Assembly (NCBI GenBank): GCA_903970435.1
Contig: CAJCIS010000007.1
Coordinates: 1 to 38,456 of the forward strand
Direction: 5' to 3'
Source: Acidobacteriota bacterium
Lineage (GTDB): Bacteria; Pseudomonadota; Alphaproteobacteria; Acetobacterales; Acetobacteraceae
Length of the DNA: 38,456 nucleotides
Shown: positions 1-35,496 of the stretch, piece by piece
Layout of the letters: each line of letters opens with the position of its first letter
Position numbering within the stretch: the first letter of the stretch is position 1
Translations under genes and position numbers: made by a program
Notes under the pieces: model-generated
The model's database searches: none
Seen by the model: only the letters and a program-made list of their open reading frames with translations
Told to the model about the DNA's origin: nothing

Positions 1-114
1 AATGATCCTGCGTCAAAGGCCGGACACATGACCGCATTCGAACCAACGCCAGCATCGCGCGATCTACTTGAACCCTGCGGGCCGTCCACACATGGTATTA
101 TTCCTTTGCCTTGC
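1..114. other. Left edge, no gene seen
   Basis: This stretch lies downstream of the minus-strand GIN-domain gene. I see no convincing coding frame, hairpin or repeat in it. Short plus-strand frames that begin here run antisense through the GIN gene and are composition shadows. Confidence 0.4.
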
Positions 115-909
115 CTACTCACCGCCGATCGAAACCGTCCCCACGCCGCTCACATCCTTGGTGACGGTTCCTGTAACCTTCGCGATCTTGACGTTGCTAA
201 TGCCGGACACTTCGATGGAAGCGTCGCCCACAGTGGCGCCTATCGTTATGTTTGACGTGCCACTGCTCGACAGCGTCAGCTTGCCGATCGTGCCTTTGTC
301 GAATTGAACTGAACCGCGCCCGGAGAGTTCCATCGATGCGGCGCCGACAGTGCCGCCGGCGATATCGAGGCTGCCGAGCCCGGAAAGGCTCGCCTGCAGC
401 GCACCGGACATTTGCGTCACGGTCACCGCACCGGTCCCGCTCAAATCAAGGCTCAAGGCGCCGGTCTTGCCGGCCTGCACATGAACCGCGCCACTCAGAT
501 CCAAATTGAGCGGACCGCCAACGTCGCCCACCTGGTATTCCGCCTGGCCGCCCTCATCGATGCCGAGCCCGATGCCGGGTGCCACATGAATATTCAATAC
601 GAGGGTGGGCCTAAAATCCATGCTCAGTCCCGGCCGCCAGCAGCGTTCCGGCACCGACAATTTCGCGGGATCGCCGCCGGCCAGCACCAGCTGGCTGGTT
701 TCCTCCTCATGGTCGGCGACCGCGTCCACCGTCACTTGCGCACCGATTGCGGCGTCTGGCGTAATGACAACCTGGCGGGCGCAAGGCGAGTCGATTTCCA
801 GGCGTGTGGCCGGGGCGCTCAAATGACGCGTGGCGGCGTGCGCGGTGCCGGCTGCCAACAGGGGCCAGGCGAATGCTGCGAACAAAGGGGCGCTGGGTGG
901 GTGGGGCAT
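115..909 (-). CDS. Secreted GIN-domain (DUF2807-like) protein
   Basis: A 264-residue exported protein. Residues 1 to about 26 form a signal peptide: a hydrophobic Ala/Leu/Phe stretch ending in AHA-A. The rest is a run of about 20-residue pseudo-repeats with the pattern LSGxGxVxV or ASLSGLGSLDI, rich in Gly, Ser, Thr and Val. This is the signature of the GIN / putative auto-transporter adhesin head domain (DUF2807), which folds as a right-handed beta-helix. Two Cys residues lie before the repeats. Such proteins are periplasmic or surface-exposed and their function is unsettled. It stands alone and is divergent from the TetR gene, with about 230 bases between their starts. The family call rests on the repeat pattern; no enzymatic residues are visible. 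Confidence 0.8.
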   Translation of the reverse strand: MPHPPSAPLFAAFAWPLLAAGTAHAATRHLSAPATRLEIDSPCARQVVITPDAAIGAQVTVDAVADHEEETSQLVLAGGDPAKLSVPERCWRPGLSMDFRPTLVLNIHVAPGIGLGIDEGGQAEYQVGDVGGPLNLDLSGAVHVQAGKTGALSLDLSGTGAVTVTQMSGALQASLSGLGSLDIAGGTVGAASMELSGRGSVQFDKGTIGKLTLSSSGTSNITIGATVGDASIEVSGISNVKIAKVTGTVTKDVSGVGTVSIGGE

Positions 910-1108
910 TCACGTGTCTCCCGGGTGAGGAACTAGGCCAGGACCTTGGTGCACGGTTTATGCCAACGCTTTGAAAGCGGGCGTTTATGGGCATCGGGAC
1001 GGCCCGGCGTGGCGAATTTTGCCATATGTTGGCAAGGAATATGACACGCGACGCCATAGTTGGGGTCAGCGCGAAACGCTTGACACCGGGCAAACATTGT
1101 GGCCACAC

Positions 1109-1126
1109 TTAACGACCGTTCGTTAA
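1109..1126. promoter_or_regulatory. Probable TetR operator (palindrome)
   Basis: TTAACGACCGTTCGTTAA has perfect 7-base arms (TTAACGA / TCGTTAA) around a 4-base centre. It ends 14 bases before the ATG of the TetR gene. The size, symmetry and position are those of a TetR-family autoregulatory operator. Binding by this regulator is inferred. Confidence 0.65.
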
Positions 1127-1140
1127 TTATAAGAGCACCG

Positions 1141-1707
1141 ATGTCGTCGCGCGGGCGTAGCAAACGTGAAGTGATCAAGGCGCAGGCGTTGCTGCTGTTC
1201 GCGGCAAACGGTGTGCACGCCGTGTCGGTGGCCGACATAGCCGCGGCGTGCGACATGACCAAGCCCAATCTTTATGCCCATTTTGCGTCGAAGGAAGAAC
1301 TCGTCCGCGAATTGTTCCAACAGGGCTACCGCGATTACGGGCGCAGAATGGCCGAGGCCGCCGCCGCCGCGGGTCCATTCCGGGTCAGACTGGAGAGGCT
1401 GGTGCGGCTGATCTGCCATCTGCATGATGAGGACCGCTCGCGGTTTCGTTTCATCTTAATGGCGCAGCACGATAACCTGCATGCCATTGCGATCGATGAA
1501 CACAACCCGGTGGAAATCGTTGTGCGCGTGGTCGCGGATGCCATGGCAAAGGGCGAAATTCCCGCCCGCAACGCCGAGCTGGTGGCCGCCGGTATCGTCG
1601 GGCTGGTGGTGCAGCCTGCAACATTTCTGCTGCACGGGCGCATCGGTGCTGCGTTGAGTACGGTTGCGGACGAAATTGTTTCAATGTGCATGAGGGTGGC
1701 GACATGA
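1141..1707 (+). CDS. TetR/AcrR-family transcriptional regulator
   Basis: A 188-residue one-component repressor. Residues about 8-55 form the TetR N-terminal helix-turn-helix (ALLLFAANGVHAVSVADIAAACDM, then TKPNLYAHFASKEEL, the recognition helix with the conserved YxHFxSKEEL). The remainder is a helical ligand-binding domain of unknown specificity. I prefer the ATG at 1141 because the in-frame GTG at 1099 would place the 18-base palindromic operator inside the coding region; neither start has a strong Shine-Dalgarno. The stop overlaps the next start in an ATGA, so it is coupled to the downstream lipid-remodelling fusion and probably controls it. The ligand may be a fatty acid or lysolipid, which is inference from the neighbour only. 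Confidence 0.85.
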   Translation: MSSRGRSKREVIKAQALLLFAANGVHAVSVADIAAACDMTKPNLYAHFASKEELVRELFQQGYRDYGRRMAEAAAAAGPFRVRLERLVRLICHLHDEDRSRFRFILMAQHDNLHAIAIDEHNPVEIVVRVVADAMAKGEIPARNAELVAAGIVGLVVQPATFLLHGRIGAALSTVADEIVSMCMRVAT

Positions 1708-4700
1708 CTTCGAGACAAAGTCCCTGGCGTTTGTTGCTGCCTCTTACGGTAACGCAGGCTTGCACTGCCCTGAACGATAACATGGTGCGCAACGCCATGG
1801 TTGTTCTGTCACTGTTCCGGCTCGGCGAGGGCCGCGTCGGGGGCGGCACCGGCCTCGTTGCACTCGCGGGCGCGCTGCTGATGGCGCCCTATATTCTGCT
1901 GTCGGCGAGCGCCGGCCAAATCGCCGACCGTTTCGCCAAGCCGAAGGTTATCCGCGCCACCAAGTTCGCCGAATTGCTGCTGATGATGGGCACCGCCGCC
2001 GCGTTCGCCGTGCAGAGCGTTCCAGGTTTGCTCGCCGTCCTGTTCGGCCTCGGCGTTCAAGGTGCCCTGTTCTCGCCGGTAAAATACGGCATTCTGCCGG
2101 AGCAGTTGGCAGACGACCAGCTGGTCGCCGGCAATGGCATTATCGAAGGCGCCACATTCCTGGCCATCGTTGCGGGAACCGTACTCGGGGGCGCACTGAT
2201 CCTGGCGCCGCGCGGCATAATCTGGGTTGGCGGCATGGGCATCGCGGTCGCGCTGCTGGGTTTGTTGGCAGCCACGCGTATACCGGCGTCGCCCGCGTCC
2301 GACCCCACGCTGCGCATCGGCGTAAATCCAATAGAAGAAACCTGGCATGTAACGCGGCGCGCCATGGCCGTGCGGCCAATCCGCCGGTCCATCCTGGGGA
2401 TATCGTGGTTCTGGACTGTTGGCGCAACAATCATGACCGAGCTGCCGGTCATCATCCGCGATACATTGGGCGCACAGGGGCAGGTGCTTACCTTGCTGCT
2501 GACAATGTTCGCGGTGGGTGTTGGCGCGGGATCACTCGGCTGTGCGCGGCTGCTGAAAGGCGAAGTGTCCGCACGCTATGTGCCCTTGGCCGGCCTCGGT
2601 ATTTCCATTTTCCTGGCCGACTTTGCGCGCGCATGTGTGCGCGGTCATCCGGCTCATCTTTTCACCATCGTAAGCATGTTGTCATCGCCCGCGGGATGGC
2701 GCATGATGGCCGATCTGTTCCTGATCGCCGTCTGCGGCGGCATGTTTTCCGTTCCGCTCTACGCCATCCTGCAGGAGGCTTCCGAACCGGCACGCCGCGC
2801 CCGCACCGTGGGCGCCAACAACGTGGTCAACGCGTTGCTGATGGTGGCCGGCGCGGCCGCGGCCACGGCCCTGGCCGCGTTGGTCGGCCCCGTTGATGTG
2901 CTGGTGGCCACGGCCTTCGTGAACCTGGCTGTCGCAGCCTGGACCTTGCGCATTTTGCCCACCCGGTTCAGCCGCATTTTGCTGCGCTGGTATTTCATTA
3001 TTTTCCACCGGGCGGAGGTGACCGGGCTGGAACATTATCGGACAGCCACGGGCAAGGTCGTCATTATATCAAACCATTTGAGTTTCGGCGATGCCGCATT
3101 GATTTCGGCCTTTTTGCCGGACAGCCCCGCCTTTGCCATTCACACCCATCAGTTGCGGCAGGCCTGGGTTCGCCTGATGGCGCGGGGCGTGCGCGTTTTT
3201 CCGGTGGATGTGCGAAACCCCTATGGCATCCGGCGCATGATCGAGGCGGTGCGCGACGAGGGGCAAAAATTGGTGATTTTCCCTGAAGGCCGCATTACGC
3301 AAACCGGCGCACTGATGAAAATCTTCGAAGGCGCCGGTGTTGTGGCCGACAAGGCCGGTGCAAGAGTGATTCCCATCAGCATCGACGGCACGCAATTCTC
3401 CCCCTTCGGCCACATGGCAGGGAAATTGAAGCTGCGGTGGTTCCCGCGCGTGCGTCTGACCATCCACCCGGCCACGGACATAACGCCGCCCGACGCTGCC
3501 AACCTGGCGCCGCGCCGCCGGCGCGAACTTGTCGGGCGCGCGCTGCATGATCTGATGGTGGAGACATCGTTCCGATCGAAGGACGTCGCCAAGACGCTGT
3601 TCGCCGCGACGCTGGATGCGGCAAGGCTGCATGGCGGCCGCACCCTCATCGCCGAGGATATCAATCGCGACCCCATTTCGTTCGCCCGTGTGATTACCGG
3701 AGCGGCCGCCCTCGGCCGCGCCCTGACCGTCGGAACAAAAGCGGGCGAGGCCGTCGGCGTCATGATGCCCAACGCCAACGCCACGCTTGTGGCATTTCTC
3801 GGTCTCAGTGCGTTCGGCCGGGTACCAGCGATGTTGAATTTTTCCGCCGGTGCGGACGGCATGCTGTCCGCCTGTGCCGCCGCCCGCGCAACCATCGTCA
3901 TTTCGAGCCGCGCCTTTGTGGAAAAGGCAAAATTGGCGCAGGTGGTTGCCCGCATGCAGCCGCATGTTCAATTCATCTGGTTAGAGGATGTCAGAGGTGC
4001 CATCGGAATCCGCGCCAAATTGCGGGCCAAATGGGATGCCATGCGCGCGCGCATTTTGCCGGGTGCCTCCGGTTCACCCGATGCGCCGGCGGTGATTCTA
4101 TTTACCTCGGGCTCGGAAGGCGAGCCGAAGGGCGTTGTGCTCAGCCACCGCAACATCCTGGCAAATTGCGCGCAACTTGCGTCCGTCATTGATTTCAATC
4201 CGACGGACCGGGTTTTCACGGCTTTGCCGATGTTCCACAGTTTCGGCCTTGTCGATGGCACCCTGTTGCCGCTGTTCAATGGCGTGCGCACCTTCCTCTA
4301 TCCATCGCCGCTGCATTACAGGACGGTGCCGGCGCTGATCTATGACAGCGACGCGACGATTTGCTTCGGCACCGACACGTTCCTCAACGGCTGGGCCAAA
4401 TATGCGCACCCCTATGATTTCTACCGTATGCGGTACATATTTGCCGGCGCCGAAAAGGTTCGCGAGGAGACCAAACGCCTGTTCGCCGAAAAATTCGGCG
4501 TCCGTGTGCTGGAGGGCTATGGCGCCACCGAAACGTCCCCGGTCTTGGCCATGAATACCGCCATGCACAGCCGGCCCAACACGGTCGGGCGGTTGCTGCC
4601 TGGCATTGCCCACATGCTGGAGAAAGTGCCGGGCGTGGCAGAAGGCGGCCGGCTCTACGTCAAAGGCCCGAATGTCATGCTAGGCTATATGCGTGGCGCG

Positions 4701-5105
4701 GCGGCTGGAATTATCGAGCCGCCGCCGGAGGGCTGGTACGATACTGGCGACATCGTCGATATCGACGCGGAGGGGTTTGTCGCCATCACCGGCCGCGCAA
4801 AACGTTTCGCCAAGATCGCCGGCGAAATGGTCTCACTCGGCGCGGCGGAGGCGCTCGTCGCCGCGTTATGGCCCGAGGAACAGCACGCCGTTCTGGCCGT
4901 ACAAGATTCACGCAAGGGTGAGCAGTTGCTGCTGGTCACGACGCGCAAGAATGCCGACATGCATGACATATTGGTCTGCGCTCGATCCCGCGGCGTGCCC
5001 GAAATCGCCGTCCCGCGCGCGTTTGTGCATGTAGATGCGATTCCGTTGCTGGGAACCGGCAAGGTGAATTATCCTGCGGCACAACGGTTGGCGGAGGCGG
5101 CGTGA
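1704..5105 (+). CDS. aas: LplT-PlsC-Aas fusion: lysophospholipid transporter / acyltransferase / acyl-ACP synthetase
   Basis: A 1133-residue inner-membrane fusion for recycling lysophospholipids. Residues about 1-420 are an MFS permease like LplT, with an N-terminal ALNDNMVRNA motif and many hydrophobic helices. Residues about 430-620 are a PlsC acyltransferase with NHLSFGD (His458, Asp463) and FPEGR (Glu528). Residues about 630-1133 are an AMP-forming acyl-ACP synthetase with the P-loop FTSGSEGEPKG (from about residue 800), GYGATETSP (from about 938), YDTGDIV (Asp1016) and a C-terminal GTGKVNY whose Lys1120 matches the catalytic lysine. In E. coli LplT and Aas are separate proteins in one operon that flip and reacylate 2-acyl-glycerophosphoethanolamine. 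Here all three activities are one chain. The start is the ATG at 1704, overlapping the TetR stop; the longer frame from 1686 would add six residues with no supporting signal. Confidence 0.9.
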   Translation: MTSRQSPWRLLLPLTVTQACTALNDNMVRNAMVVLSLFRLGEGRVGGGTGLVALAGALLMAPYILLSASAGQIADRFAKPKVIRATKFAELLLMMGTAAAFAVQSVPGLLAVLFGLGVQGALFSPVKYGILPEQLADDQLVAGNGIIEGATFLAIVAGTVLGGALILAPRGIIWVGGMGIAVALLGLLAATRIPASPASDPTLRIGVNPIEETWHVTRRAMAVRPIRRSILGISWFWTVGATIMTELPVIIRDTLGAQGQVLTLLLTMFAVGVGAGSLGCARLLKGEVSARYVPLAGLGISIFLADFARACVRGHPAHLFTIVSMLSSPAGWRMMADLFLIAVCGGMFSVPLYAILQEASEPARRARTVGANNVVNALLMVAGAAAATALAALVGPVDVLVATAFVNLAVAAWTLRILPTRFSRILLRWYFIIFHRAEVTGLEHYRTATGKVVIISNHLSFGDAALISAFLPDSPAFAIHTHQLRQAWVRLMARGVRVFPVDVRNPYGIRRMIEAVRDEGQKLVIFPEGRITQTGALMKIFEGAGVVADKAGARVIPISIDGTQFSPFGHMAGKLKLRWFPRVRLTIHPATDITPPDAANLAPRRRRELVGRALHDLMVETSFRSKDVAKTLFAATLDAARLHGGRTLIAEDINRDPISFARVITGAAALGRALTVGTKAGEAVGVMMPNANATLVAFLGLSAFGRVPAMLNFSAGADGMLSACAAARATIVISSRAFVEKAKLAQVVARMQPHVQFIWLEDVRGAIGIRAKLRAKWDAMRARILPGASGSPDAPAVILFTSGSEGEPKGVVLSHRNILANCAQLASVIDFNPTDRVFTALPMFHSFGLVDGTLLPLFNGVRTFLYPSPLHYRTVPALIYDSDATICFGTDTFLNGWAKYAHPYDFYRMRYIFAGAEKVREETKRLFAEKFGVRVLEGYGATETSPVLAMNTAMHSRPNTVGRLLPGIAHMLEKVPGVAEGGRLYVKGPNVMLGYMRGAAAGIIEPPPEGWYDTGDIVDIDAEGFVAITGRAKRFAKIAGEMVSLGAAEALVAALWPEEQHAVLAVQDSRKGEQLLLVTTRKNADMHDILVCARSRGVPEIAVPRAFVHVDAIPLLGTGKVNYPAAQRLAEAA

Positions 5106-5159
5106 AGGAAGGAAGCAGTTCTTTTCTGAAGAAAGCAACCAAATAACTTTTATTTGTTG
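5106..5159 (+). repeat. Dispersed AT-rich palindromic element, copy 1
   Basis: A diverged forward copy of the intergenic element found eight times in this window: GGAAGCAGTTCTTTT, then CTGAAGAAAGCAACC, then an A/T-rich tail ending ACTTTTATTTG. It begins directly after the stop of the Aas fusion and lies between convergent genes, so it can act as a bidirectional terminator (inference). Confidence 0.6.
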
Positions 5160-5223
5160 AGGCAATCCCGAACGCCCGGGCTAAGAGCTCCAACCGTTCC
5201 GGAGGCGAGGAGCAAGAGTCTTT

Positions 5224-5550
5224 TCACCCGCTACGCTTACGCATCTTATCACGAATCATCGGCGTCGCCTGGTGGTCACCCTGGTCGGTGAATCGATCCG
5301 GAAACTCTCCGAGATTCTCTTGCAGGGACGCCTCATCGACAACTTCGCCCTGAACGGCCGTATCGCGCAGCATCGGGATTTCCACTTCGCCCGCACCGGG
5401 GCTTTCCTCAATGCCGACGAGTTCACGCGCGCGTTCCCAATATTCCAGGTCTTGCCCTAAAGGGCGACCATCATTCTCCCAAAGGTGATAGGCGCGTTGG
5501 CGAATACGCTCGGTACGTTCCGGCGTGTCTTCAAGGGGATTATCACTCAT
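5224..5550 (-). CDS. DUF2934-domain protein
   Basis: A 108-residue soluble acidic protein. The N-terminal part (about residues 8-45: ERTERIRQRAYHLWENDGRP, then GQDLEYWERARE) matches the DUF2934 pattern of small alphaproteobacterial proteins that often sit near stress and catalase/ferritin-like genes. The tail has no recognisable domain. The start is the ATG at 5550, preceded by AAGGCAG; the longer frame up to 5790 adds an arginine-rich, low-quality sequence and is rejected. It lies 109 bases downstream of yciF on the same strand with a GC-rich hairpin between them, and may share the yciF promoter. Function unknown. Confidence 0.8.
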   Translation of the reverse strand: MSDNPLEDTPERTERIRQRAYHLWENDGRPLGQDLEYWERARELVGIEESPGAGEVEIPMLRDTAVQGEVVDEASLQENLGEFPDRFTDQGDHQATPMIRDKMRKRSG

Positions 5551-5603
5551 GTTGCTGCCTTCTTGATCTGGTAAGGATGAATGTTCGCGCCCATACGACG
5601 CTA

Positions 5604-5631
5604 GCCGGGGCGCGCACGCGCGCACCCCGGC
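5604..5631 (-). terminator. GC-rich hairpin between yciF and the DUF2934 gene
   Basis: GCCGGGG (5604-5610) and CCCCGGC (5625-5631) are perfect complements, with an inner GCGC/GCGC pair around a short loop. No T-run follows on the minus strand. It may attenuate or stabilise the message rather than end it. Confidence 0.45.
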
Positions 5632-5659
5632 CCATCGGCGTTCGGACAGGCTGTTTCTG

Positions 5660-6163
5660 TCAGGCGGCCATCCGGTTGACCTTTGTCTCGGCAATATTGC
5701 TAAGCTTCTTATCGGCCGCCTTCTCTTCCGACAAAGTTTCCTGAAGCACCCGGGCGCACTCGTTGCGGCCCAGCTGAGATGCGAATGCAATTAGGGACCC
5801 GTAGCGGGAGATCTCGTAATGCTCGACCGCCTGCGCCGCAGCCAGCATCGCCGCGTCGCAAACTTCCTTGTCGCCGCAGTCGGAGATGAGTTCCTTCGCT
5901 TCGGTCAGGATTCCATCGATCGCCGGGCAGGTCACGCCCTTGGCGGGCTTGCCATGCATTTCAAACACCTTTTCCAGGCGTTTCACCTGATTCTTTGTTT
6001 CAGTCAGGTGATGCTCGAAAGCAGCCTTCAGCTCGGGGTTCGATGCCTTCTCGGCCATGGTTGGCAGGTTCTTCACGATTTGCTGCTCGGCGTAGTAAAT
6101 ATCCTGCAGCGTGTGAAGGAAAAGATCATCGAGTGTTTTGATGGGGCTTGTAAACAAACCCAT
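5660..6163 (-). CDS. yciF: YciF-like ferritin-superfamily stress protein (DUF892)
   Basis: A 167-residue cytoplasmic four-helix-bundle protein of the DUF892/YciE-YciF family, at the usual family length. Visible signatures are the opening TLDDLFLHTLQDIYYAEQQI (Glu26), the FEHHLTET helix (around residues 49-56), the AVEHYEI helix and a C-terminal EEK. These Glu/His residues lie where ferritin-like folds bind metals. The exact role is unknown; relatives are induced by general, osmotic or oxidative stress. A strong Shine-Dalgarno (GGAGG five bases before the ATG) fixes the start. Upstream is a perfect EcfG-type promoter match (6255-6280), so sigma-EcfG control is likely. The DUF2934 gene follows on the same strand. 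Confidence 0.88.
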   Translation of the reverse strand: MGLFTSPIKTLDDLFLHTLQDIYYAEQQIVKNLPTMAEKASNPELKAAFEHHLTETKNQVKRLEKVFEMHGKPAKGVTCPAIDGILTEAKELISDCGDKEVCDAAMLAAAQAVEHYEISRYGSLIAFASQLGRNECARVLQETLSEEKAADKKLSNIAETKVNRMAA

Positions 6164-6254
6164 GACGGCCTCCGTTGGTTCTACGACTGGGGTTCACGTT
6201 TTGCATGAGGCAAGCAGCTTGCAAACTTTGCAGCCATCGCTTCCACGTTCCGAC

Positions 6255-6280
6255 AACGCCTATTTCAGCTACGTCGTTCC
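6255..6280 (-). promoter_or_regulatory. EcfG-type general stress promoter of yciF
   Basis: On the minus strand this reads GGAAC (6280-6276), 17 bases, then CGTT (6258-6255), an exact match to the alphaproteobacterial EcfG consensus GGAAC-N16/17-CGTT. It sits about 92 bases upstream of the yciF ATG in the correct orientation. Function is inferred from sequence. Confidence 0.65.
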
Positions 6281-6304
6281 CTAAGGCAAGACGAATTCAC
6301 GTCA

Positions 6305-6520
6305 TTACTGCAAGCGGGTTTGGTGGGAATTCCGCCACTGCGAGGCCGATGACAGCTTCCCGTAGGAATGCTTGTCGGCTTCCGCCTTGCCGCCCTTTTC
6401 GGACGCGGATGTTTCAGAATGATGCCGGTCGCTCGTGGGCGTGCCCTTTGGTTCATCGGCGGCCGCGCCCTCGGGGATGCCGTGATCCGGCACAGGTTTG
6501 GTGTGTGTTTCCGCCGACAC
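6305..6520 (-). CDS. Small hydrophilic protein of the stress island
   Basis: A 71-residue protein with no hydrophobic segment, rich in Ser, Glu, Lys, His, Gly and Ala (for example SETSASEKGGKAEADKHSYG), probably intrinsically disordered. I do not recognise a family. It is supported by an excellent ribosome site, GGAGG six bases before the ATG, and by an upstream EcfG-like promoter (6554-6579). It is in tandem with yciF and DUF2934, and divergent from glgE. The composition resembles small stress-induced hydrophilic proteins; that is only an analogy. Confidence 0.6.
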   Translation of the reverse strand: MSAETHTKPVPDHGIPEGAAADEPKGTPTSDRHHSETSASEKGGKAEADKHSYGKLSSASQWRNSHQTRLQ

Positions 6521-6553
6521 GTGGACCCTCCGCGCATGCGCTCTACATTAATG

Positions 6554-6579
6554 AACCGCGCAACCTGCATCCAAGTTCC
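6554..6579 (-). promoter_or_regulatory. EcfG-like promoter of the small hydrophilic protein
   Basis: On the minus strand GGAAC (6579-6575), 17 bases, then GGTT (6557-6554). The -35 is perfect and the -10 keeps the GTT core with one change from CGTT. It lies 34 bases upstream of the ATG, leaving a short leader that carries the GGAGG site. Confidence 0.45.
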
Positions 6580-6683
6580 CATGGGCAGCGCCGCCGGCTC
6601 CATACACCTCTGCGGAGGAGACTTGAACACGCGCCGTCAGAATTGCCAGAAGCCCACCAGGCCCGAAAAACGGAATGATGATG

Positions 6684-6708
6684 GGAACGCCGATGCACGC
6701 CACCGGTT
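6684..6708 (+). promoter_or_regulatory. EcfG-like promoter upstream of glgE
   Basis: GGAAC (6684-6688), 16 bases, then GGTT (6705-6708), ten bases before the glgE ATG. If used, the transcript would be nearly leaderless, which fits the lack of a Shine-Dalgarno there. One base deviates from the -10 consensus. Confidence 0.4.
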
Positions 6709-6718
6709 GAATAATCCG

Positions 6719-9706
6719 ATGCCAGCCGACAGAAGCCCGATCCGCGATGCCGCTCTCGACGGTAAAGCTCCGCGCGCTTACGCCTTGGCGTTGCCCCCTA
6801 ACGTCGCCGCGTTGGAACAGGCGGCCGATGCGGCGCGTCGCCTCGGCTTTGACAGCTTGCTTGCGCTGGCCGCGAATCCCGCGGACCCTGCGTTGCAGGC
6901 TTACGGTCATGCGGCAGTGAATGAGTTCGCCCGCGCCGCGCACAACCAAGGGTTGATAGCATGGACAACTGTTTCGCTTGATCGTATTTGCTCCGATCAC
7001 GAATTGGTGGTGCAGTCGCCGGCAAAATCGTTCGGCACGCCGCCCCTTGCTCAAGCCGATGCCATCGATCCGCGCCAGCCGGTCGCGCGCGTGCGGGGTG
7101 TTGTCCGGTTGCGGCAACCATGGTGCGAGGTCGTGGGTAAATGGTGGCTGCATCAACTCGAACGGTTACGAGACCTGGGCCTTGACGGTTTTGTCCTGCT
7201 CGACTCCCACGCTGCCGGTGTCGCGCTCGCGTCAAGGCTGGTGCAGGTGGGCGAACGAATCGAAATGTTTCGAACCGCGTCGCCAGATTCGGTCGTTGAA
7301 GCCGGCAACGTGCTGCTCGGCGCGGAGTCGCGCGTTCGCGCCGCGCCGCTGCGCGCGGCAATGGCCTATGTAGGGCTGACCGCCGACGGCTGGGCGTTTG
7401 CAGAACCCAACGATGCCGGCCTGGATGCAACCGTGCTTGCTGTGAATGAAGCTTTGCGAACCCGCGGGCCGGGTGCGTCGGTGCGCCGTTGGACGGGCGC
7501 CGGCGCGAAGTTGGAAATCATTTCGCGATCAACGGACAACGGCGCGTTGCTGTTGGTGCGAAATCGCGCGCCGGCCCCGGCCGTCTGGCCACCTGAAAGA
7601 TTGCCTCCCTTGCCATGGCAACATTTTACCGCGGCATCGGGGTTCGACATGAACCGGATGGTCATTGCGCCGGGCGACGCGGTGTTGCTGCTGGCCCGTC
7701 CTCAGCCAAATGTGGTCGTGCCACCCGGGATGAAATTGGATGCGGCAACGGATCCTGCCCGGCGCGTCGTCATTACGCGCGTGTCACCGTCAGTTGATCG
7801 CGGCGCGTTCCCGGCGAAATCGGTGGTCGGCGATTGCGTGGCTATAGAGGCGGACCTGTTCGCCGATGGTCACGAGCAGTTGGCAGCTGCCGTGCTGACA
7901 CGGGCCATCGACGAAAAGGGCTGGGCCATCCAACCCATGCGTTTGGTGGCGAACGATGTCTGGAGCGCGTCCGTGCGGTTCACCCGCCTCGGCCGCCATG
8001 AAATGGTGATTGAGGCGTGGATCGACGAATGGGGTGGTTTCACGCGCGATCTTACCCGAAAAAATGATGCCGGGCAGGATGTGACGCTCGAGTTGCGCGA
8101 GGCCAGGTCGTTCATCGAAGCCGCGGCGGACAGGGCCCGCCCACAGACATCCGCGCAATTGTCGGCAACCTTGGCAGCTCTCGATGACGCGGATGCCGCT
8201 ACTTCCGTAAGCATAATATTGGCAGAGAAGCTTGCCACGGCGATGGCTGAGGCAGCCGACCGGCGGTTCCTTACGCGGAGTTTTGTCCAGCCGATCGAGG
8301 TTGAGCGAGAGGGCGCCCGGTTTGCCAGCTGGTACGAACTATTCCCGCGCTCGCAGAGCCAGGACAAGAAGCGGCATGGAAATTTTTCAGATGTCATTGC
8401 ACGATTGCCGCATATCGTGGCCATGGGATTCGATACGTTGTATTTTCCGCCGATCCATCCGATCGGGCAACGAAACAGAAAGGGGCCCAACAATTCGCTG
8501 CAGGCAGCGCCGTCTGACGTGGGTAGCCCGTACGCTATCGGTTCCGAGCTCGGGGGCCACAATGCCATTCACCCCGAGCTCGGCACGCTGGCGGACTTTC
8601 AGGCATTGATTGCCGCCGCGCACGAACAAGGCCTCGACCTCGCGCTCGATTTCGCGATCCAATGCGCGCCGGACCATCCTTGGTTGGCGGAACATCCCGG
8701 CTGGTTCGCATGGCGGCCTGACGGCACCGTCAAATATGCCGAAAATCCTCCCAAGAAATACCAGGATATCGTCAATGTCGACTTCTACGCACCGGATGCG
8801 GTACCAGAACTATGGGAAGCGCTGCGTGACGTGGTGCTGTTCTGGATAGAGCAAGGTGTGCGAACGTTCCGTGTAGATAACCCCCACACCAAACCATTGC
8901 CGTTTTGGCAATGGATGATCGCCGATGTGAAGGCCCGATTCCCCGAAGCACTTTTTCTTGCAGAGGCGTTCACGCGGCCGAAGCCCATGTATCAGCTCGC
9001 CAAGGTGGGATTTTCCCAATCCTACACGTATTTTACCTGGCGCAATGAGAAGGCGGAGCTGACATCTTACATGAACGAGCTCACGCAGACCGACGTCAGA
9101 CATTTCTTTCGCCCACATTTCTTCGTCAACACGCCCGACATCAATCCGGTGTTCCTGCAAACGGCCGGGCGTGCCGGCTTTCTAATCCGGGCGGCACTTG
9201 CCGCAACCCTCTCCGGCCTGTGGGGCGTTTATGCTGGTTTCGAGCTCTGCGAGGCCGACGCCTTGCCAGGGCGCGAAGAATATCTCGACAGCGAAAAATA
9301 CGAATTACGCCCGCGGCCGGATCGTGCGCCCGGTGATATCGTCGACGAAATCACGCACCTGAACCATCTGCGCCGTGCTGAACCGGCCCTGCAAAGTCAC
9401 CTCGGGCTGACATTCCAGGTGGTATTCAACGACAATATCCTTTACTACACCAAACAGGCGCCCGGCCATTCCGACCTTCTGCTGATCGCCGTCAGTCTTG
9501 ATCCTCATGGCGTGCAGGAGGCGGATTTCGAAGTGCCGCTCTGGCACTTTGGGTTGGCAGATGATGGGAGTGTGGACGTGGAGGATTTGGTGCGCGGCAG
9601 GCACTTCCGCTGGACCGGGAAGATCCAGCATTTACGCCTGGCGCCCGACCATCCCTACGCGATATGGCGCATAATGCCTTCTGCCGGGGCGGTGAACATT
9701 GTCTAA
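6719..9706 (+). CDS. glgE: GlgE: alpha-1,4-glucan:maltose-1-phosphate maltosyltransferase, with N-terminal extension
   Basis: A 995-residue GH13_3 enzyme that moves maltosyl units from maltose-1-phosphate to the non-reducing end of an alpha-1,4-glucan. Residues about 346-995 are the classical GlgE: an N/S domain beginning RRVVITRVSPSVDRG, then the barrel with HPIGQRNRKGPNN, FRVDNPHTKP (nucleophile Asp720), LAEAFTRP (acid/base Glu749) and NTPDINP (Asp807). The spacing of the first two equals that of the Streptomyces enzyme. Residues 1-345 are extra compared with the about 660-residue actinobacterial proteins and look like a degenerate GH13-like half-barrel without the catalytic set. The ATG at 6719 is preferred; the open frame runs back to 6368 but that part is arginine-rich and overlaps the divergent small gene. 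First gene of the operon; its stop overlaps treS by eight bases. Confidence 0.93.
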   Translation: MPADRSPIRDAALDGKAPRAYALALPPNVAALEQAADAARRLGFDSLLALAANPADPALQAYGHAAVNEFARAAHNQGLIAWTTVSLDRICSDHELVVQSPAKSFGTPPLAQADAIDPRQPVARVRGVVRLRQPWCEVVGKWWLHQLERLRDLGLDGFVLLDSHAAGVALASRLVQVGERIEMFRTASPDSVVEAGNVLLGAESRVRAAPLRAAMAYVGLTADGWAFAEPNDAGLDATVLAVNEALRTRGPGASVRRWTGAGAKLEIISRSTDNGALLLVRNRAPAPAVWPPERLPPLPWQHFTAASGFDMNRMVIAPGDAVLLLARPQPNVVVPPGMKLDAATDPARRVVITRVSPSVDRGAFPAKSVVGDCVAIEADLFADGHEQLAAAVLTRAIDEKGWAIQPMRLVANDVWSASVRFTRLGRHEMVIEAWIDEWGGFTRDLTRKNDAGQDVTLELREARSFIEAAADRARPQTSAQLSATLAALDDADAATSVSIILAEKLATAMAEAADRRFLTRSFVQPIEVEREGARFASWYELFPRSQSQDKKRHGNFSDVIARLPHIVAMGFDTLYFPPIHPIGQRNRKGPNNSLQAAPSDVGSPYAIGSELGGHNAIHPELGTLADFQALIAAAHEQGLDLALDFAIQCAPDHPWLAEHPGWFAWRPDGTVKYAENPPKKYQDIVNVDFYAPDAVPELWEALRDVVLFWIEQGVRTFRVDNPHTKPLPFWQWMIADVKARFPEALFLAEAFTRPKPMYQLAKVGFSQSYTYFTWRNEKAELTSYMNELTQTDVRHFFRPHFFVNTPDINPVFLQTAGRAGFLIRAALAATLSGLWGVYAGFELCEADALPGREEYLDSEKYELRPRPDRAPGDIVDEITHLNHLRRAEPALQSHLGLTFQVVFNDNILYYTKQAPGHSDLLLIAVSLDPHGVQEADFEVPLWHFGLADDGSVDVEDLVRGRHFRWTGKIQHLRLAPDHPYAIWRIMPSAGAVNIV

Positions 9707-12700
9707 TCGCAAAATGTCCAAGCTGCCAAGCAACCCGCTCTGGTACAAGGATGCGGTGATTTATCAGCTGCACGTCAAATCGTATTTCGACTCCGACAAC
9801 GATGGGGTTGGCGATTTTCCGGGCCTGATCCAGCGCCTGAATTACCTCGCCGAAATGGGTGTAAACTGCCTTTGGCTGTTGCCCTTCTATCCTTCGCCGC
9901 GCCGAGACGATGGCTATGACATCTCCGATTACCGCAATGTGCATCCGGAATATGGCAAACTGTCCGACGTAAAGCGTTTTATTTACGAAGCGCATGCACG
10001 CGGAATTCGCGTCATTACTGAACTCGTCATCAATCACACATCAGATCAGCATCCCTGGTTCCAGCGCGCACGCCGGGCGAAAAAGGGTTCTGCGGCGCGC
10101 AACTTCTACGTCTGGTCAGATACCGACAAGGCCTACGCGGGCACGCGCATCATCTTTCTTGACACGGAAAAATCCAACTGGACATGGGATGAAGAGGCAA
10201 AAGCCTATTTCTGGCATCGTTTCTATTCGCATCAGCCGGATCTGAACTTCGACAATCCGCTTGTGCTGAAAGCGGTGCTGTCGGTGATGCGGTTTTGGCT
10301 GGACCTGGGGGTGGACGGCTTGCGTTTGGATGCGGTGCCGTATCTGGCGGAGCGTGAGGGGACCAGCAACGAAAATCTGGAGGAAACGCACGAAATTCTG
10401 CGCAAGATACGCGCGGCGCTCGACCGTGATTACACCGACCGTGTGTTGCTGGCCGAAGCGAACATGTGGCCGGAGGATACGCAGCAATATTTTGGCCGCA
10501 ATGCCGACGAATGCCACATGGCGTTTCATTTCCCGCTCATGCCGCGCATGTATATGGCCATTGCGCAGGAAGACCGGTTCCCGATATCCGATATCATGCG
10601 GCAGACGCCGGATATTCCGGAGAGTTGTCAGTGGGCGATTTTTCTGCGCAATCATGATGAGCTGACCTTGGAGATGGTCACCGACAAGGAGCGGGACTAT
10701 CTGTGGGAAACCTATGCATCGGACCGCAGGGCACGCATCAATCTCGGTATTCGCCGTCGTCTCGCGCCATTGCTGGAGCGTGACCGGCGGCGTATCGAAT
10801 TGATGAATTGCCTGCTGCTGACCATGCCGGGAACGCCGGTTCTCTATTACGGTGACGAAATCGGCATGGGCGACAATGTGCATTTGGGTGACCGCGACGG
10901 TGTGCGCACTCCCATGCAATGGTCGGGCGATCGTAACGGCGGCTTCTCCCGCGCCGATCCCGCGAGCCTGGTGCTGCCGACCATTCAGGATCCGCTCTAC
11001 GGCTACCAGGCGGTCAATGTTGAAGCGCAATGGCGAGATCCGCATTCGCTTTTGAACTGGACGCGGCGCATGCTGGTGGTGCGCCGGCAGCATCAGGCAT
11101 TCGGCCGTGGCACACAACGTTTTCTCCGTCCCATGAACCGGAAGGTGTTGGCGTATCTGCGCGAATATGACGGCGAATCCATACTGTGCGTCGCGAACGT
11201 GTCGCGCGCCGCCCAGGCGGTCGAGCTCGATCTCAGCGAGTTTGCCGGACGTGTGCCGGTGGAGCTTTCCGGCCGGATGTCATTCCCAAAAATCGGCCAA
11301 CTCACCTACCTCATCACTTTGCCGCCCTACGGATTTGCCTGGTTCCTGCTGAGCACCGACGCAGAGGCGCCGGCATGGAGTTCGGCAACACCTGGCAGGC
11401 AGGACGAGATGTATACGTTCGTACTAAGGAACGGTCTGGCGGATATTGTCTCCGGCAAGGCGCGGCATGTGCTTCAGCACGAGTTGCTGCCTGGCTATAT
11501 CGCACAACGGCGATGGTTTCAAAACAAGGACGAAGAAGTCGGCGGCGTGGAGATCAGCGCCTTCGATGCTTTGCCGGGCGCGGGGCAGGAGGCGATGTTT
11601 GTCGAGTTGTGCTTGCACGTCAACGAGCGATTTGAGCGGTACACGCTTCCTCTTACCGTTGCGTGGGAGGATGCAACGCCGCATCCCTTTGAAGCGCCAT
11701 TGGCCCTCGCACGGGTGCGTCGCGGCCGCCGCGTGGGATTACTGACGGATGCGTTCGCCTCGCCGGTGCTGCCACGGGCCATGATCCTTGGCTTGAAAGG
11801 CAAGGCCGTGGTTGAATTGGAATGCGGCGGCCGCATCGTATGCCGCCCAACAATTGCCATGGACACGGCTGAACTGGATGACGATGCCGAAATCCACTGG
11901 CCGGGCACTGAACAAACCAACTCCACACTGCTGATTGGTCATCAGGCGGTCGTCAAGATGTTTCGGCGATTGACCGCCGGAACCCATCCTGAGGCCGAAA
12001 TGAGCCGTATGCTGACCGAGCGGGGTTTTGGCGGGGCGCCTGCCCTGCTGGGCGACATCGTGCGCATCGGCTCGGACGGCCAGGAATACACGCTCGCCGT
12101 CATGCAGAAGTTTGTCGACAATCAAGGTGATGGTTGGGCGTGGAGCCTCGACCTTCTGAAGCGCATTGTCGAGGAGGGGTCGACACCGTTCGGCCGGGAC
12201 GAATCCTCCGTGTTTGGTCCCTATACCACGTTTGCGCGCACACTGGGGCGGCGCCTTGGTGAAATGCATGCGACTTTAGCCCAGCCCAGCGAAAACCCCG
12301 ATTTCGCGCCCACCCATGCTACGTCCGACGATGTTGAGGCCTGGAGAAATCAGGCCAGCGAAGAACTTGCGCACGCCATCGACAGTTTGGCCAGCCGCGC
12401 GAACCTGTCGGATGCGGACGCCGAATTGGCGCGTGCCATTGCAAAGAATCGTTCCGGGCTATCACGGGCGATGGAACGCATGGCGTCCGGCGGTGAAGGC
12501 GCCTTGCGCATACGCATTCATGGTGATCTCCATCTGGGGCAGGTACTGGTTGCCGGCGCGGACGTGCAAATCATCGATTTCGAAGGAGAGCCCAAGAAGT
12601 CATTGGCGGTGCGCCGCGCGAAGGCTAGCCCATTCCGCGACATTGCCGGCCTTATCAGGTCTTTTGACTATGTGGCGGCGCAGATTGGCCGTAATGTCCA

Positions 12701-12974
12701 GGTGAATGAAGCCGCGACCGAAGGCGGTGCGCGCGCCGAAGACCTGTTGCAACGTTTTCGCAGCGAGGCGGAGGCGGCAATGTTGGCAGGATATGGCGAA
12801 GGGTCCGGCGACGCGTTGCCCCCCATCAACCAAGGCCTGCTCGACCTGTTTGTTTTGGAGAAGGCGGCGTATGAAATTGGTTACGAGGCTGCAAATCGGC
12901 CGGATTGGCTGGCCGTCCCGTTACGTGGTTTGGCGCGCCTGATGAACCATATCCTCGAGGAGGCGCCAGCATGA
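9699..12974 (+). CDS. treS: Trehalose synthase / maltokinase fusion (TreS-Mak)
   Basis: A 1091-residue bifunctional enzyme. Residues about 10-550 are TreS, a GH13_16 isomerase converting trehalose and maltose; catalytic residues are Asp211 ([11 protein letters not shown]), Glu253 (LLAEANMW) and Asp320 (RNHDEL). Residues about 565-1091 are maltokinase, starting [15 protein letters not shown] and carrying the kinase catalytic loop HGDLHLGQ (Asp943) and the metal site IIDFEGEP (Asp960). The kinase phosphorylates maltose with ATP, giving the maltose-1-phosphate used by GlgE. The TTG at 9699 overlaps the glgE stop; an ATG 15 bases later is an alternative start with no better ribosome site. It overlaps glgB by an ATGA, so the genes are translationally coupled. 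Such fusions are common where GlgE occurs in proteobacteria. Confidence 0.93.
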
Positions 12975-15250
12975 CAGAGGATTCCGTGGATACCTCCGGC
13001 CAGCGAGGTGACAATCAGGCGAACCTGACAGATATCGAATCAGTTTATCGGAGCGGGTTGAATGACGGACGCTTGACCGATCCACTTGCTGCGGAAGCAC
13101 TCGCCCAAGGTATCGTGGGTGACCCGTTCTCTATTCTTGGGCCACATGAGACGCAGTCCGGAACGGTCGTGCGGGCCTTCCTGCCTGGTGCCGAATCTGT
13201 GAGCGTTGTGGCGCGGGAAAATGCGGGCGTGCTGGCTGAATTGCGGCCAGAGGGGAATGCCGGACTATTTAGCGGTGTCATCCCGAACCTGGTGCCATAT
13301 ATGTTGCGCATCAAGTGGCCAGGGGGAATACAGGAGACCGAGGACCCTTACAGTTTCGGCCTGCTGCTCGGCGCGACAGACCTGTATTTGTTTTCCGAAG
13401 GAGCCCATTGGCAATTGTCGGAAAAATTTGGCGCGGCTGCAACCACCCATGAAGGGGTGGACGGGGTGCGGTTTGCTGTCTGGGCGCCAAACGCAAGGCG
13501 CGTTTCGGTTGTCGGCAACTTCAATACGTGGGACGGGCGCCGGCATACGATGCGAAAACGTATCGAGGCAGGTGTGTGGGAGCTGTTTGTTCCCCGTTTG
13601 CGGGCGGGGGAGCACTACAAGTATGAAATTCTGGGGCCGGACGGTCAGGTGCAGCCACTAAAGGCCGATCCGTTGGGCCGCCGCACCGAAGCCCCGCCAT
13701 CGACAGCTTCTGTTGTGACCGATCCCACCCCGTTTACATGGAGTGATCAGGAATGGATTGCATCACGTGCGAAACGGCAAGGTGCTGACGCACCTATGTC
13801 GATCTATGAGGTTCATGCCGGCTCATGGCTTCGCCCGGATGGCAACGCAGGGTCCGTGCTTGATTGGAGCGGCTTGGCCGAACGCCTGATACCCTATGTC
13901 GTAAGGCTCGGTTTTACGCATATCGAATTCCTGCCGATTATGGAACATCCATTTGGCGGCTCATGGGGATACCAACCGCTGTCGCAATTCGCACCGACGG
14001 CACGCTACGGGTCGCCAGCCGATTTTGCAGAGTTTGTCGATTCGTGTCACGACCAGGGCGTCGGCGTCCTATTGGATTGGGTGCCGGCTCATTTTCCAAC
14101 TGATGCTTACGGCCTGGCACTCTTCGACGGTACTCATTTATATGAACACGCCGATCCGCGGGAAGGGCTGCAACAGGATTGGAACACCTTGGTGTACAAT
14201 CTTGGCCGGACAGAAGTGCAAGGCTTCCTGATTGCCAGCGGGCTTTATTGGCTTGAGACATTTCATGTCGACGGGCTTCGCGTCGATGCGGTAGCCTCCA
14301 TGCTCTACCGTGACTATTCGCGTGGACCAGGTCAATGGACACCGAACATCTACGGCGGCCGTGAAAATCTGGAAGCGATCGCGTTCTTGAAACGCATGAA
14401 TACCGTTGTGGCGGAACGATGCCCGGGCGCCGTGACCATTGCCGAAGAATCCACAGCGTGGCCGGGCGTTTCGGCGCCGGTATCATCGGGCGGGCTCGGC
14501 TTCAGCTTCAAGTGGAACATGGGCTGGATGCACGACACGCTGAAATATTATGGGAAGGACCCGATCTATCGCTCGTGGGAACACGGGGATATTACATTCG
14601 GGTTGATCTACGCATTTTCCGAGCGCTTCGTTTTGCCGCTGTCGCATGACGAAGTCGTGCATGGCAAAGGATCGCTCTATCGGCGGGCGCCCGGCGATGC
14701 GTGGCAGAAATCGGCGAATCTGCGCGCCTATTTCAGTTTCATGTGGACGCATCCTGGCAAGAAGCTGCTATTCATGGGTGGTGAGATCGGCCAGGATCGT
14801 GAGTGGAACCATGACGGCGAAATCGATTGGGCATTATTGGATGATCCGCTTCATGCGGGCCTGCAACGCCTGGTCGGCGACCTCAACCGGCTCTATCGCG
14901 GCATGCCCGCGCTTCACGAAGGTGATTGTGAGAGCTGGGGTTTTGCCTGGGTCATCGGCGACGCTGCGGCCGATAGCGTATTCGCCTATTTGCGGCGGGA
15001 TCGGGCGGGACGGCCTGCACTCGTCGTTCTGAACATGACGCCGGCCGTCCGGGAGGATTATCGGGTTGGCGTCCCCGCCGAAGGTTTCTGGAGGGAACTG
15101 TTGAACAGTGATTCAGAGATTTACGGCGGCAGCAATGTCGGGAATGCGGGGGCCGTGCAAGCAGATCCCGTTGCGATGCACGGGCATGATTGGTCGTTGC
15201 GGCTTCGCTTGCCGCCTCTGGCGGCCCTCATCCTCGAAGGCGGCGCATGA
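12971..15250 (+). CDS. glgB: 1,4-alpha-glucan branching enzyme
   Basis: A 759-residue GH13_9 enzyme that cuts an alpha-1,4 chain and rejoins it as an alpha-1,6 branch, here on the glucan built by GlgE. Residues about 40-150 form the N1 region and about 155-270 the CBM48 domain ([24 protein letters not shown]). The barrel follows with [18 protein letters not shown] (nucleophile Asp439), TIAEEST (Glu492) and [12 protein letters not shown] (Asp560). A strong GAGGAGG before the ATG at 12971 and the ATGA overlap with treS settle the start; the longer frame from 12905 is rejected. Length is close to the 730-residue E. coli enzyme. Confidence 0.95.
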
Positions 15251-22268: not shown

Positions 22269-22376
22269 AGGAAGCAGTTCTTTTTTGAAAAAAAGAACCA
22301 AAAAACTCTTGCTCTTTAGCGCGCGCCCAGACAGCAAGAGTTTTTTGTTTCTTTTTTTCAAAAAAGAAATACTTCC
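22269..22376. repeat. Dispersed element, copies 2 and 3, as an inverted pair
   Basis: A forward copy (22269-22313; GAAGCAGTTCTTTTTTGAAA, then AAAAGAACC) faces a reverse copy (22332-22376; AGCAAGAGTTTTTTG, then CAAAAAAGAAATACTTCC). The two copies are complementary over most of their length, leaving a loop of about 18 bases, so the locus could form one long hairpin. It lies between the stop of the outer-membrane protein gene and the ModE-like gene, where a terminator is expected. Confidence 0.75.
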
Positions 22377-22384
22377 TTCCTTTC

Positions 22385-23353
22385 TTAAAACGTCACCCGC
22401 GTCGTCAAAATCCAAGCATGGTTATAGGCCGGAGTTTGCTCCGTAGTATCAACATATTTCGGTGATACCGCCACTTGATAACCGCCGCCGATAATGAATT
22501 TTACCCGCTTGTAGATAACGAAACGACCCAGAATTATGCCAGGCGTGAGCAGCACCTGGTTCTTGCCGCCGCGTTCATTGCCGTTCAGCCACTTCGTGCC
22601 GTTAACCTCGAACTCCGGCCAGAAATACGTGCCAAGGTGATATTGGAACGCAATGTTGGATGCGATCGACGTGCCCAGCGTGGATTGGTTACGGAACGGG
22701 ATGGCGACGCCGATGGTCGCCTGAATGTCGAAATCGCCCCAACCTTTCCCGGCTGCGATCGTCGGCGTGACGAGCCAGGTTTTGTTGGTAAAGGCCGCAT
22801 TGCCGGACCCGGCGGTGACGCCGAGAAACGCGGTGACGATATAGTTGCCGTTTTCTTCGTTGCCGCTGAACAGGCGTTGCTTAACCACGAGAAACTGATC
22901 GTCGAGCCAGCCATTCGCGGGGTGTGCGGTGGTGCCCTTGAATTGGTAAGCGGGCGGATTGATCAACAGCTCATTCGTTTCGGTGGGAATTAGCTCGAGC
23001 CCCTTGCCGGCGTCGAAAATGTCCAGCGTGGACCCGTTGCCGCGGCTTTCCCAATATTGGTCGTAACGGACCTCCTGCTCCAGGCGGGGCGTGACGGTCA
23101 CGAGCGGCGTCATCCAGTGCGGCTGGCTGGCCTGCGCGGCTTCGACGCGGTCGAAGTAATCGGCAAAAAAATCGCCCACGTAGATTTGCGGCACGGGCGC
23201 GGGCGCAGCTTGCGGGTCGGGGGTGGTCGCCTGGGCGAAGACCTGCGGGGGCGCCGCCGCCGTCAACGGTGGCGCCGAGGATTGGGCCTGAGCGAAACCG
23301 GCCGTGGGCGCGGTGAGGCCGGCGATGAGAAGGAACAATCGGCCCGAACGCAT
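22385..23353 (-). CDS. Outer-membrane beta-barrel protein, porin/transporter-like
   Basis: A 322-residue exported protein. Residues 1 to about 24 are a signal peptide (RSGRLFLLIAGLTAPTAGFAQAQ). A Pro/Ala-rich linker follows (to about residue 60). The rest shows alternating polar and aromatic beta-strands such as VKFIIGGGYQVAVSP and AWILTTRVTF, and the chain ends in Phe, the usual outer-membrane insertion signal. I do not recognise a substrate; proteins like this are annotated as hypothetical or transporter-like in Acetobacteraceae. The start is at 23353, where the signal peptide begins; the frame reaching 23413 adds 20 residues upstream of it. Confidence 0.75.
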   Translation of the reverse strand: MRSGRLFLLIAGLTAPTAGFAQAQSSAPPLTAAAPPQVFAQATTPDPQAAPAPVPQIYVGDFFADYFDRVEAAQASQPHWMTPLVTVTPRLEQEVRYDQYWESRGNGSTLDIFDAGKGLELIPTETNELLINPPAYQFKGTTAHPANGWLDDQFLVVKQRLFSGNEENGNYIVTAFLGVTAGSGNAAFTNKTWLVTPTIAAGKGWGDFDIQATIGVAIPFRNQSTLGTSIASNIAFQYHLGTYFWPEFEVNGTKWLNGNERGGKNQVLLTPGIILGRFVIYKRVKFIIGGGYQVAVSPKYVDTTEQTPAYNHAWILTTRVTF

Positions 23354-28524: not shown

Positions 28525-28576
28525 GGAAGCAAGCAAGCAGTGCTTTTTTTAAAAAAAGAACCAACAAACTTTTGCT
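28525..28576 (+). repeat. Dispersed element, copy 4
   Basis: A forward copy starting directly after the permease stop: AAGGAAGCAAGCAAGCAG, then TGCTTTTTTT AAAAAAAGAACC and ACAAACTTTTGCT. The GGAAGCA head is partly triplicated (AAGC repeated). It is shared between convergent genes. Confidence 0.65.
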
Positions 28577-28609
28577 CCACGCGCTGCGGTCAGGCAACGC
28601 GTGGAGCAA
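28572..28609. terminator. 12-base stem hairpin between convergent genes
   Basis: TTGCTCCACGCG (28572-28583) and CGCGTGGAGCAA (28598-28609) pair perfectly around a 14-base loop. For the minus-strand gene ending at 28615 the stem is followed by AAAAGTTTGTTGG and then TTCTTTTTTT from the repeat element. It is a good intrinsic-terminator candidate, strongest for the minus strand. Confidence 0.65.
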
Positions 28610-31350: not shown

Positions 31351-31392
31351 GCAAAAGTCTTTTGGTTCTTTTCTTCAGAAAGGAACGGCTTC
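31351..31392 (-). repeat. Dispersed element, copy 5
   Basis: A reverse copy: GCAAAAGTCTTTTGG, then TTCTTTTCTTCAGAAAGGAAC and GGCTTCTCC. The two arms still pair but with several changes. The open frame of the following MFS gene reads through this element, giving a spurious basic N-terminal extension. Confidence 0.6.
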
Positions 31393-31442
31393 TCCCCCTT
31401 TTGCTTTTGAACCCCCCCAACCCTCCGTCCCAACAGGTGCCG

Positions 31443-32683: not shown

Positions 32684-32695
32684 TTGTCTTCCTTC

Positions 32696-35492: not shown

Positions 35493-35496
35493 TTTT

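Follow-up and report, generated by a model that had tools for sequence, protein, structure and literature searches.

An undescribed family of small hydrophilic proteins with a conserved motif and a recurrent EcfG-type promoter

The window, a stretch of 38,456 nucleotides from a genome placed in the Acetobacteraceae, contains a small minus-strand gene whose product is of a known kind and belongs to an undescribed family that is defined by a motif. The frame is almost certainly a real gene, and it is very probably under EcfG-type control. The best reading of the gene, which we hold with about even confidence, is that it encodes an EcfG-controlled, hydrophilin-like general-stress effector with a conserved docking motif. 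The sequence-only reading from which this work started had suggested a new small protein of the stress response, and that suggestion was strengthened by conservation across genera, dN below dS among family members, an ECF-type promoter and recurring stress-response neighbors. At the level of sequence, the case consists of the family itself, its coding constraint, the motif, the promoter enrichment and the neighbors. General stress regulons hold many unnamed small proteins; this one has a motif by which to define it and a promoter that recurs, and with about 30 genera covered it can be annotated and tested. The features discussed below are as follows.

6305 to 6520, minus strand: small-protein coding sequence, 71 codons plus stop, GTG start at 6520 (open reading frame list, homologues)
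6410 to 6457, minus strand: conserved family motif DEPKGTPTSDRHHSET, residues 22 to 37 (two family alignments)
6308 to 6409, minus strand: C-terminal tail, residues 38 to 71, not conserved (first alignment, Pfam)
6527 to 6531, minus strand: ribosome-binding site GGAGG, with a 6-base spacer to the GTG (sequence)
6554 to 6579, minus strand: EcfG-type promoter of the small gene, −35 GGAAC (6579 to 6575), N17, −10 GGTT (6557 to 6554)
6255 to 6280, minus strand: second EcfG-type site, GGAAC-N17-CGTT, 91 bases before yciF
6684 to 6708, plus strand: third EcfG-type site, GGAAC-N16-GGTT, facing the glgE frame
5660 to 6163, minus strand: yciF-type gene, DUF892 ferritin-like (Pfam, E 9.4e-62)
6623 to 9706, plus strand: glgE, maltosyltransferase, with an in-frame ATG at 6719 and an alternative TTG start at 6623 (GlgE_dom_N_S, E 4.3e-49)
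5110 to 5155, 22269 to 22314, 22335 to 22386, 28532 to 28577, 31352 to 31403, 32598 to 32690 and 35452 to 35503, both orientations: copies of an AT-rich repeat (sequence)

The small gene and its family

The 71-codon open frame was found as described, running from 6520 down to 6305 on the minus strand with the stop codon included, but the start codon is GTG and not the ATG that had been claimed. The GGAGG reported six bases before the start is present at 6531 to 6527, and the third-position GC content of the frame is 0.72, against 0.61 and 0.54. Since 81 frames of at least 60 amino acids overlap positions 1 to 14000 of the window, the frame is unremarkable by its length alone; what raises it above chance is the conservation of homologous frames, the profile matches in genomes that had played no part in building the profiles, and the promoter found across the family.

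We searched 299 genomes of the window's family with the single protein and obtained weak matches outside its own genome (best E 1.2e-5); 74 of the 299 matched at an E of 0.1 or below, mostly as noise. A first alignment, A1, was assembled from the window protein and 12 short frames that carried the motif and were picked by inspection, which amounts to a selection; a thirteenth motif locus (L008) was noticed but left out. This choice was checked afterwards by running profiles on genomes unused in the building and on a sample of the class. In such unused genomes, the A1 profile gave E values of 2.4e-13 (G272), 2.6e-10 (G186), 3.0e-10 (G018) and 5.0e-9 (G081). A second profile, A2, covered the core motif of 36 members; locus L116 had been dropped before it was built, and L114 gave no match. 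The alignments of family members yield the motif DEPKGxP[T/N/S]SDRxxTET, in which R32 and E36 are invariant among the 36 aligned sequences and P28 is present in at least 90% of them. Only this core is conserved, the N terminus and the tail varying freely, and the tail of the window protein is longer than that of the other 12 sequences in the first alignment.

At an E of 0.005 or below, the A2 profile matched 62 of 397 genomes of the window's family, its own included, spread over 33 of 102 genera; both counts are slightly high, because the match in G185 (E 0.002, locus L255) looks false on inspection and the L116 member (G117) looks doubtful. The class sample of 385 genomes returned two matches, both within the window's family, and none outside it. 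As far as sampled, the motif family appears restricted to this family of genomes. Among five loci from named genomes, members occur in Acidisoma silvae, Acidisoma cellulosilyticum and Acidisoma sp. L85, a genus that NCBI places in the Acidocellaceae, Acetobacterales. The genome of the window has one copy, a second candidate being nonsignificant (E 0.265). No model in Pfam or NCBIfam matched the window protein. Eight further members were likewise without a match in Pfam, and NCBIfam gave one nonsignificant line (E 8.7) for them. The plasmid collection contained no family match, PHROGs returned a single weak line of no meaning (E 0.038), and in the literature we recognized no paper that names the motif or the family, searches with pieces of both motifs discussed here returning none.

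Conservation in related genomes, which had been proposed as a check, was evident in that one frame is kept across genera. A dN/dS below 1, the other expectation, held among the members and could not be extended to the window copy. In all 22 close member pairs, which come from fewer loci and are not independent, dN was lower than dS (ratios between 0 and about 0.5). The window copy is in none of them: no DNA match to 5660 to 9706 was obtained in the sole genome from the same genus, which is 66% complete, and for this reason the window copy has no dN/dS value of its own.

Promoter and general stress response machinery

The upstream element GGAAC-N17-GGTT was present as described, at 6579 to 6554 and 33 bases before the start. 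Across the window, GGAAC-N16/17-[C/G]GTT occurs 3 times, against 1.11 expected, and 11 of 100 shuffles reach 3; the three sites all lie within 454 bases (6255 to 6708), before yciF, the small gene and glgE. The site at 6684 to 6708 ends 10 bases before the in-frame glgE ATG at 6719 and may be a stress promoter giving a nearly leaderless transcript.

Inspection by eye of the regions upstream of 36 members revealed GGAAC or GCAAC, 16 to 17 bases and then CGTT or GGTT. Within 90 bases of the start, GNAAC-N16/17-SGTT was found in 13 of the 36 members of this first set, whereas random places in those loci would lead one to expect 0.15; 90-base stretches there carry the pattern at a rate of 0.42%. 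Because the pattern had been read by eye off this set and was one of six forms tried, the held-out members provide the only fair test. Applied in the same form, it was present in 8 of the 22 held-out members, compared with 4 of 305 other genes (Fisher 4.5e-8). The held-out set began as 23 loci, of which L104 was dropped for want of a clear start; two of the rest (L098 and L111) had been in an earlier scan, and 8 of the remaining 20, all new, carried the pattern. L214 was scored as a miss, the start used for it lying inside a response-regulator gene. Starts of the control genes were taken from a crude gene caller, and two of the four control matches, the pyridoxamine-oxidase-like gene and ecfG of L108, are probably true EcfG targets that were left in the control count. 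In the held-out loci, random 90-base stretches carried the pattern at 0.82%, a figure to which short loci contribute the family's own upstream regions.

Overall, GNAAC-N16/17-SGTT precedes 21 of 58 members in 13 of 30 genera, related species not being independent, and the fixed pattern is absent from the other 37. Where it occurs, the site begins between 33 and 70 bases ahead of the start, the median being 52. A relaxed form, pattern C, which admits NNAAC and CGCT, is found before 36 of the 58 and was chosen after the held-out set had been seen. The stricter GGAAC-N16/17-CGTT was rejected as a family feature, with 0 of 40 first loci and 4 of 22 held-out loci. In the genome of the window, this strict form shows no excess (47 sites versus 116 for the reversed pattern) and lies outside every predicted frame in 5 of 30 loci examined; strict sites stand before yciF and, as judged by eye, a HisKA-type sensor kinase-like gene, and a gene 238 bases after another is presumably trehalose-6-phosphate synthase. 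Three of the five members from genus g78 (L081, L089 and L096) have no CGTT or GGTT box and show, by eye, GGYAA(C/A) followed by CATATC in a similar place.

In the established PhyR-NepR-EcfG cascade of the alphaproteobacterial general stress response, stress activates PhyR, which titrates NepR and thereby frees EcfG. All three genes, on which an EcfG regulon depends, are present in the genome of the window: its NepR scored over the Pfam cutoff, an ECF sigma gene follows it, and a PhyR gene is on the opposite strand. Two GGAAC-N16/17-GGTT sites point toward phyR; the variant found before the small gene is also the one that stands before phyR. Of 30 member genomes searched for NepR, 22 gave a detection, 18 of them over the cutoff, and 8 gave none; NepR went undetected in the four genus g78 genomes searched. 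Besides these, upstream of divergent NepR-like genes in L156, L158 and L168, the EcfG-type site forms a near-perfect inverted repeat, GGAACGGGCCC...GGGCCCGTT, of which L174 has a looser version. The available part of a study of Sphingomonas melonis records GGAAC-GGTT forms among EcfG-dependent genes and GCAAC-N16-CGTT for general stress protein 26 (PMC6599016), and GGAAC-N16-CGTT is given for Rhizobium etli in the part available of another paper (PMC3892343). The GGAAC/GCAAC and CGTT/GGTT/CGCT forms seen here may broaden the promoter description that can be applied in this bacterial family.

Gene neighborhoods

The small gene had been placed between yciF and a trehalose/glucan operon, and the annotation agrees: downstream on the same strand are the yciF-type (DUF892) gene and a DUF2934 gene, and glgE, treS-maltokinase and glgB lie divergently on the other side. 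Sixty member loci, of which 40 extended to at most 12 kb and 20 to about 3 kb, were searched with glgE, treS, glgB, yciF and DUF2934 from the window and with phyR, nepR and ecfG from its genome. Matches were obtained in 4 loci (L108, L115, L102 and L107), and the other 56 had no match to the window neighbors or to phyR, nepR or ecfG. Synteny in relatives, another expectation of the sequence-only reading, was therefore upheld in part: a few genera share neighbors, but with only 4 of 60 loci sharing any, shared neighbors were rejected as a family-wide feature.

L108 matched glgE, a treS-type gene, phyR, nepR and ecfG. Here the small gene follows a pyridoxamine-oxidase-like gene and adjoins phyR, a HisKA_2 kinase gene, a PRC-barrel gene and nepR-ecfG; on its other side, one gene without assigned identity is followed by those for GlgE and a maltokinase-type protein. 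In L115, from a different genus, which matched phyR, nepR and ecfG, the small gene faces a gene that resembles, by eye, the pyridoxamine-oxidase-like gene of L108, and then come phyR and nepR-ecfG. In L102 and L107, from two further genera, a DUF892 gene precedes the small gene in the same orientation, with about 100 bases between them in L107. Our estimate for EcfG control was raised by these loci, since they place the small gene beside phyR-nepR-ecfG in a second genus and beside a yciF-type gene in two more. By eye, other loci have sugar-nucleotide and aminotransferase-like genes, chemotaxis-like and acetyl-CoA-synthetase-like genes, or aldo/keto-reductase-like genes, and single loci have a ferritin-like, YflT or pyridoxamine-oxidase-like neighbor. 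A contig of G003 with a piece of glgE contained no family member within the 9 kb examined.

Apart from these genes, the window carries the AT-rich repeat listed above. Its copies are about 46 to 52 bases long with the core ...TTCTTTTTTTCAAAAAAGAA..., occur in both orientations and in some cases form long inverted repeats, and translated stretches of similar appearance occur in another contig of the genome.

Composition, possible functions and known systems

The sequence-only reading had described a charged, probably disordered product. The 58 members measured, which include the partial frame of L214, are 47 to 101 amino acids long (median 63). Every one lacks cysteine, has a GRAVY below −1 (window protein −1.37) and is predicted by the charge-hydropathy rule to fall on the disordered side. 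Glycine exceeds 6% in 47 of the 58 and reaches 8.5% in the window protein. Hydrophilins are defined by more than 6% glycine and a hydrophilicity index above 1; with a GRAVY below −1 as a stand-in for that index, the window protein qualifies on both glycine and hydrophilicity. AlphaFold, run on the single window sequence, gave a pLDDT of 65.6, a pTM of 0.20 and a helix at residues 58 to 70, a model that is compatible with disorder and neither proves nor excludes it.

The preferred reading would run as follows. Under stress, PhyR would become active and titrate NepR, leaving EcfG free to transcribe the small gene from GGAAC-N17-GGTT, a site that is seen and whose use we infer. The product would be a small, soluble, disordered, hydrophilin-like protein that accumulates with YciF and with the trehalose or glucan produced by the adjacent operon and may help to protect proteins or membranes during drying, osmotic stress or stationary phase. 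Promoter and neighbors together assign it to the proteins that cells produce under stress or once growth ceases. The conserved segment would make a specific contact with a partner in addition to this protection, which is probable because DEPKGxPTSDRxxTET seems too constrained for a purely space-filling protectant. Taken by itself, a protective, hydrophilin-like role falls somewhat short of even likelihood. A disordered protein encoded beside a trehalose/glucan operon suggests a partnership of the Hsp12 type. In yeast, as reported in the available part of PMC6054528, full tolerance of drying comes from trehalose and the small disordered hydrophilin Hsp12 in combination, and another hydrophilin, Stf2, does not work in this way.

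The same motif can be given more weight. The conserved segment may be a short linear docking motif for one partner, which could be a chaperone, a regulator, a protease adaptor or some surface of the stress machinery; the remaining sequence would then be no more than a linker, and the protein would act as an adaptor instead of a bulk protectant; the restriction of conservation to about 16 residues between a variable N terminus and tail, the occurrence of the motif on the tail of a receiver-domain protein and its junction with a second motif (both described below) all point that way. We give this reading tentative standing, as no partner is known, the response-regulator case is single, and 47 of 58 members have a composition that fits a hydrophilin. 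That receiver-domain fusion (L261), together with the positions near phyR-nepR-ecfG in L108 and L115, would also accord with a small regulatory protein acting in feedback on the general stress response, for example on PhyR, NepR or a sensor kinase. We regard such feedback as improbable: phyR, nepR or ecfG was found in 2 of 60 member loci, 20 of them only about 3 kb long, and Pfam detects no resemblance to NepR.

Two further alternatives were considered. In the enterobacterial yciGFE genes, the KGG-repeat stress protein YciG is encoded before yciF, and the small gene has the same position and strand relative to its yciF-type neighbor and an EKGGKA at residues 41 to 46. A remote relationship to YciG is nevertheless scarcely credible, given that neither the whole protein nor the tail matched in Pfam at E values up to 10 (HMMER filters drop most weak matches), that none of the other 12 sequences in the first alignment has this tail, and that L102 has a separate YciG-like frame, so both kinds occur side by side. 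This frame, at 4290 to 4601 on the plus strand of L102, is recognized by eye from KGGQHSGGG; the DUF892 gene comes immediately after it, and the family gene another 0.7 kb along that strand. That the frame is open by chance, or belongs to an RNA gene, and no protein is made would be in keeping with how common frames of this length are in GC-rich DNA, with the GTG start and with the lack of a close relative in which the exact locus could be compared; conservation of the protein motif across genera, an excess of synonymous change among members and a correctly spaced ribosome-binding site make it very improbable. The EcfG-controlled, hydrophilin-like effector with a docking motif is the reading we retain.

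The motif also occurs beyond the small proteins. In L261 (2229 to 3218, plus strand), a receiver-domain response regulator carries the family motif RPTGMPTSDRHATETAH in its C-terminal tail, and several members join the family motif to a second short motif, FPASDPP. This second motif was found in 35 of 240 class genomes at an E of 0.01 or below, that of the window included. It is a class-wide short motif (DEALEESFPASDPP) of small hydrophilic proteins (L234, L245, L232, L233 and others), present as a tandem pair in L232 and L233. It stands at the C terminus of an OsmC-type protein in L234, with L239 alike by eye, and the small FPASDPP protein of the window's own genome has no Pfam match. The same promoter type precedes FPASDPP genes in L236, L242 and L248 among the loci listed, and with the site before only these three we make no promoter claim for such genes. 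The L261 tail and the FPASDPP fusions favor a motif with a life of its own. A speculative proposal, which we consider unlikely, makes DEPKGxPTSDRxxTET a modular peptide tag that serves the general stress response in the window's family; if true, the motif would mark small disordered proteins made under EcfG and a response-regulator tail, would be paired with the class-wide FPASDPP, itself a tag on further proteins such as the OsmC-type one, and such tags would recruit stress proteins to a common partner or assembly.

Among known systems, hydrophilins and LEA proteins such as yeast Hsp12 share with the family a small size, glycine content, strong hydrophilicity, predicted disorder and apparent regulation by stress; the small gene, moreover, adjoins trehalose/glucan genes in the window and has them close by in L108. 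The family differs from these proteins in its defining motif and its lack of a Pfam match, and a protective role in its case is putative. YciG and other KGG-repeat proteins resemble the window protein as small hydrophilic proteins encoded beside yciF, but a match to the KGG family is absent. The EcfG-dependent hypothetical proteins of Sphingomonas melonis Fr1, compared by description and not by sequence from the available part of PMC6599016, have the same promoter type near the start, whereas in the class sample the family motif was limited to the window's family. The FPASDPP proteins are linked to the family through fusion with the EPKGxPTSDR motif in several members and through a short, hydrophilic context; they extend across the class, whereas the family motif, as far as sampled, is restricted to the window's family.
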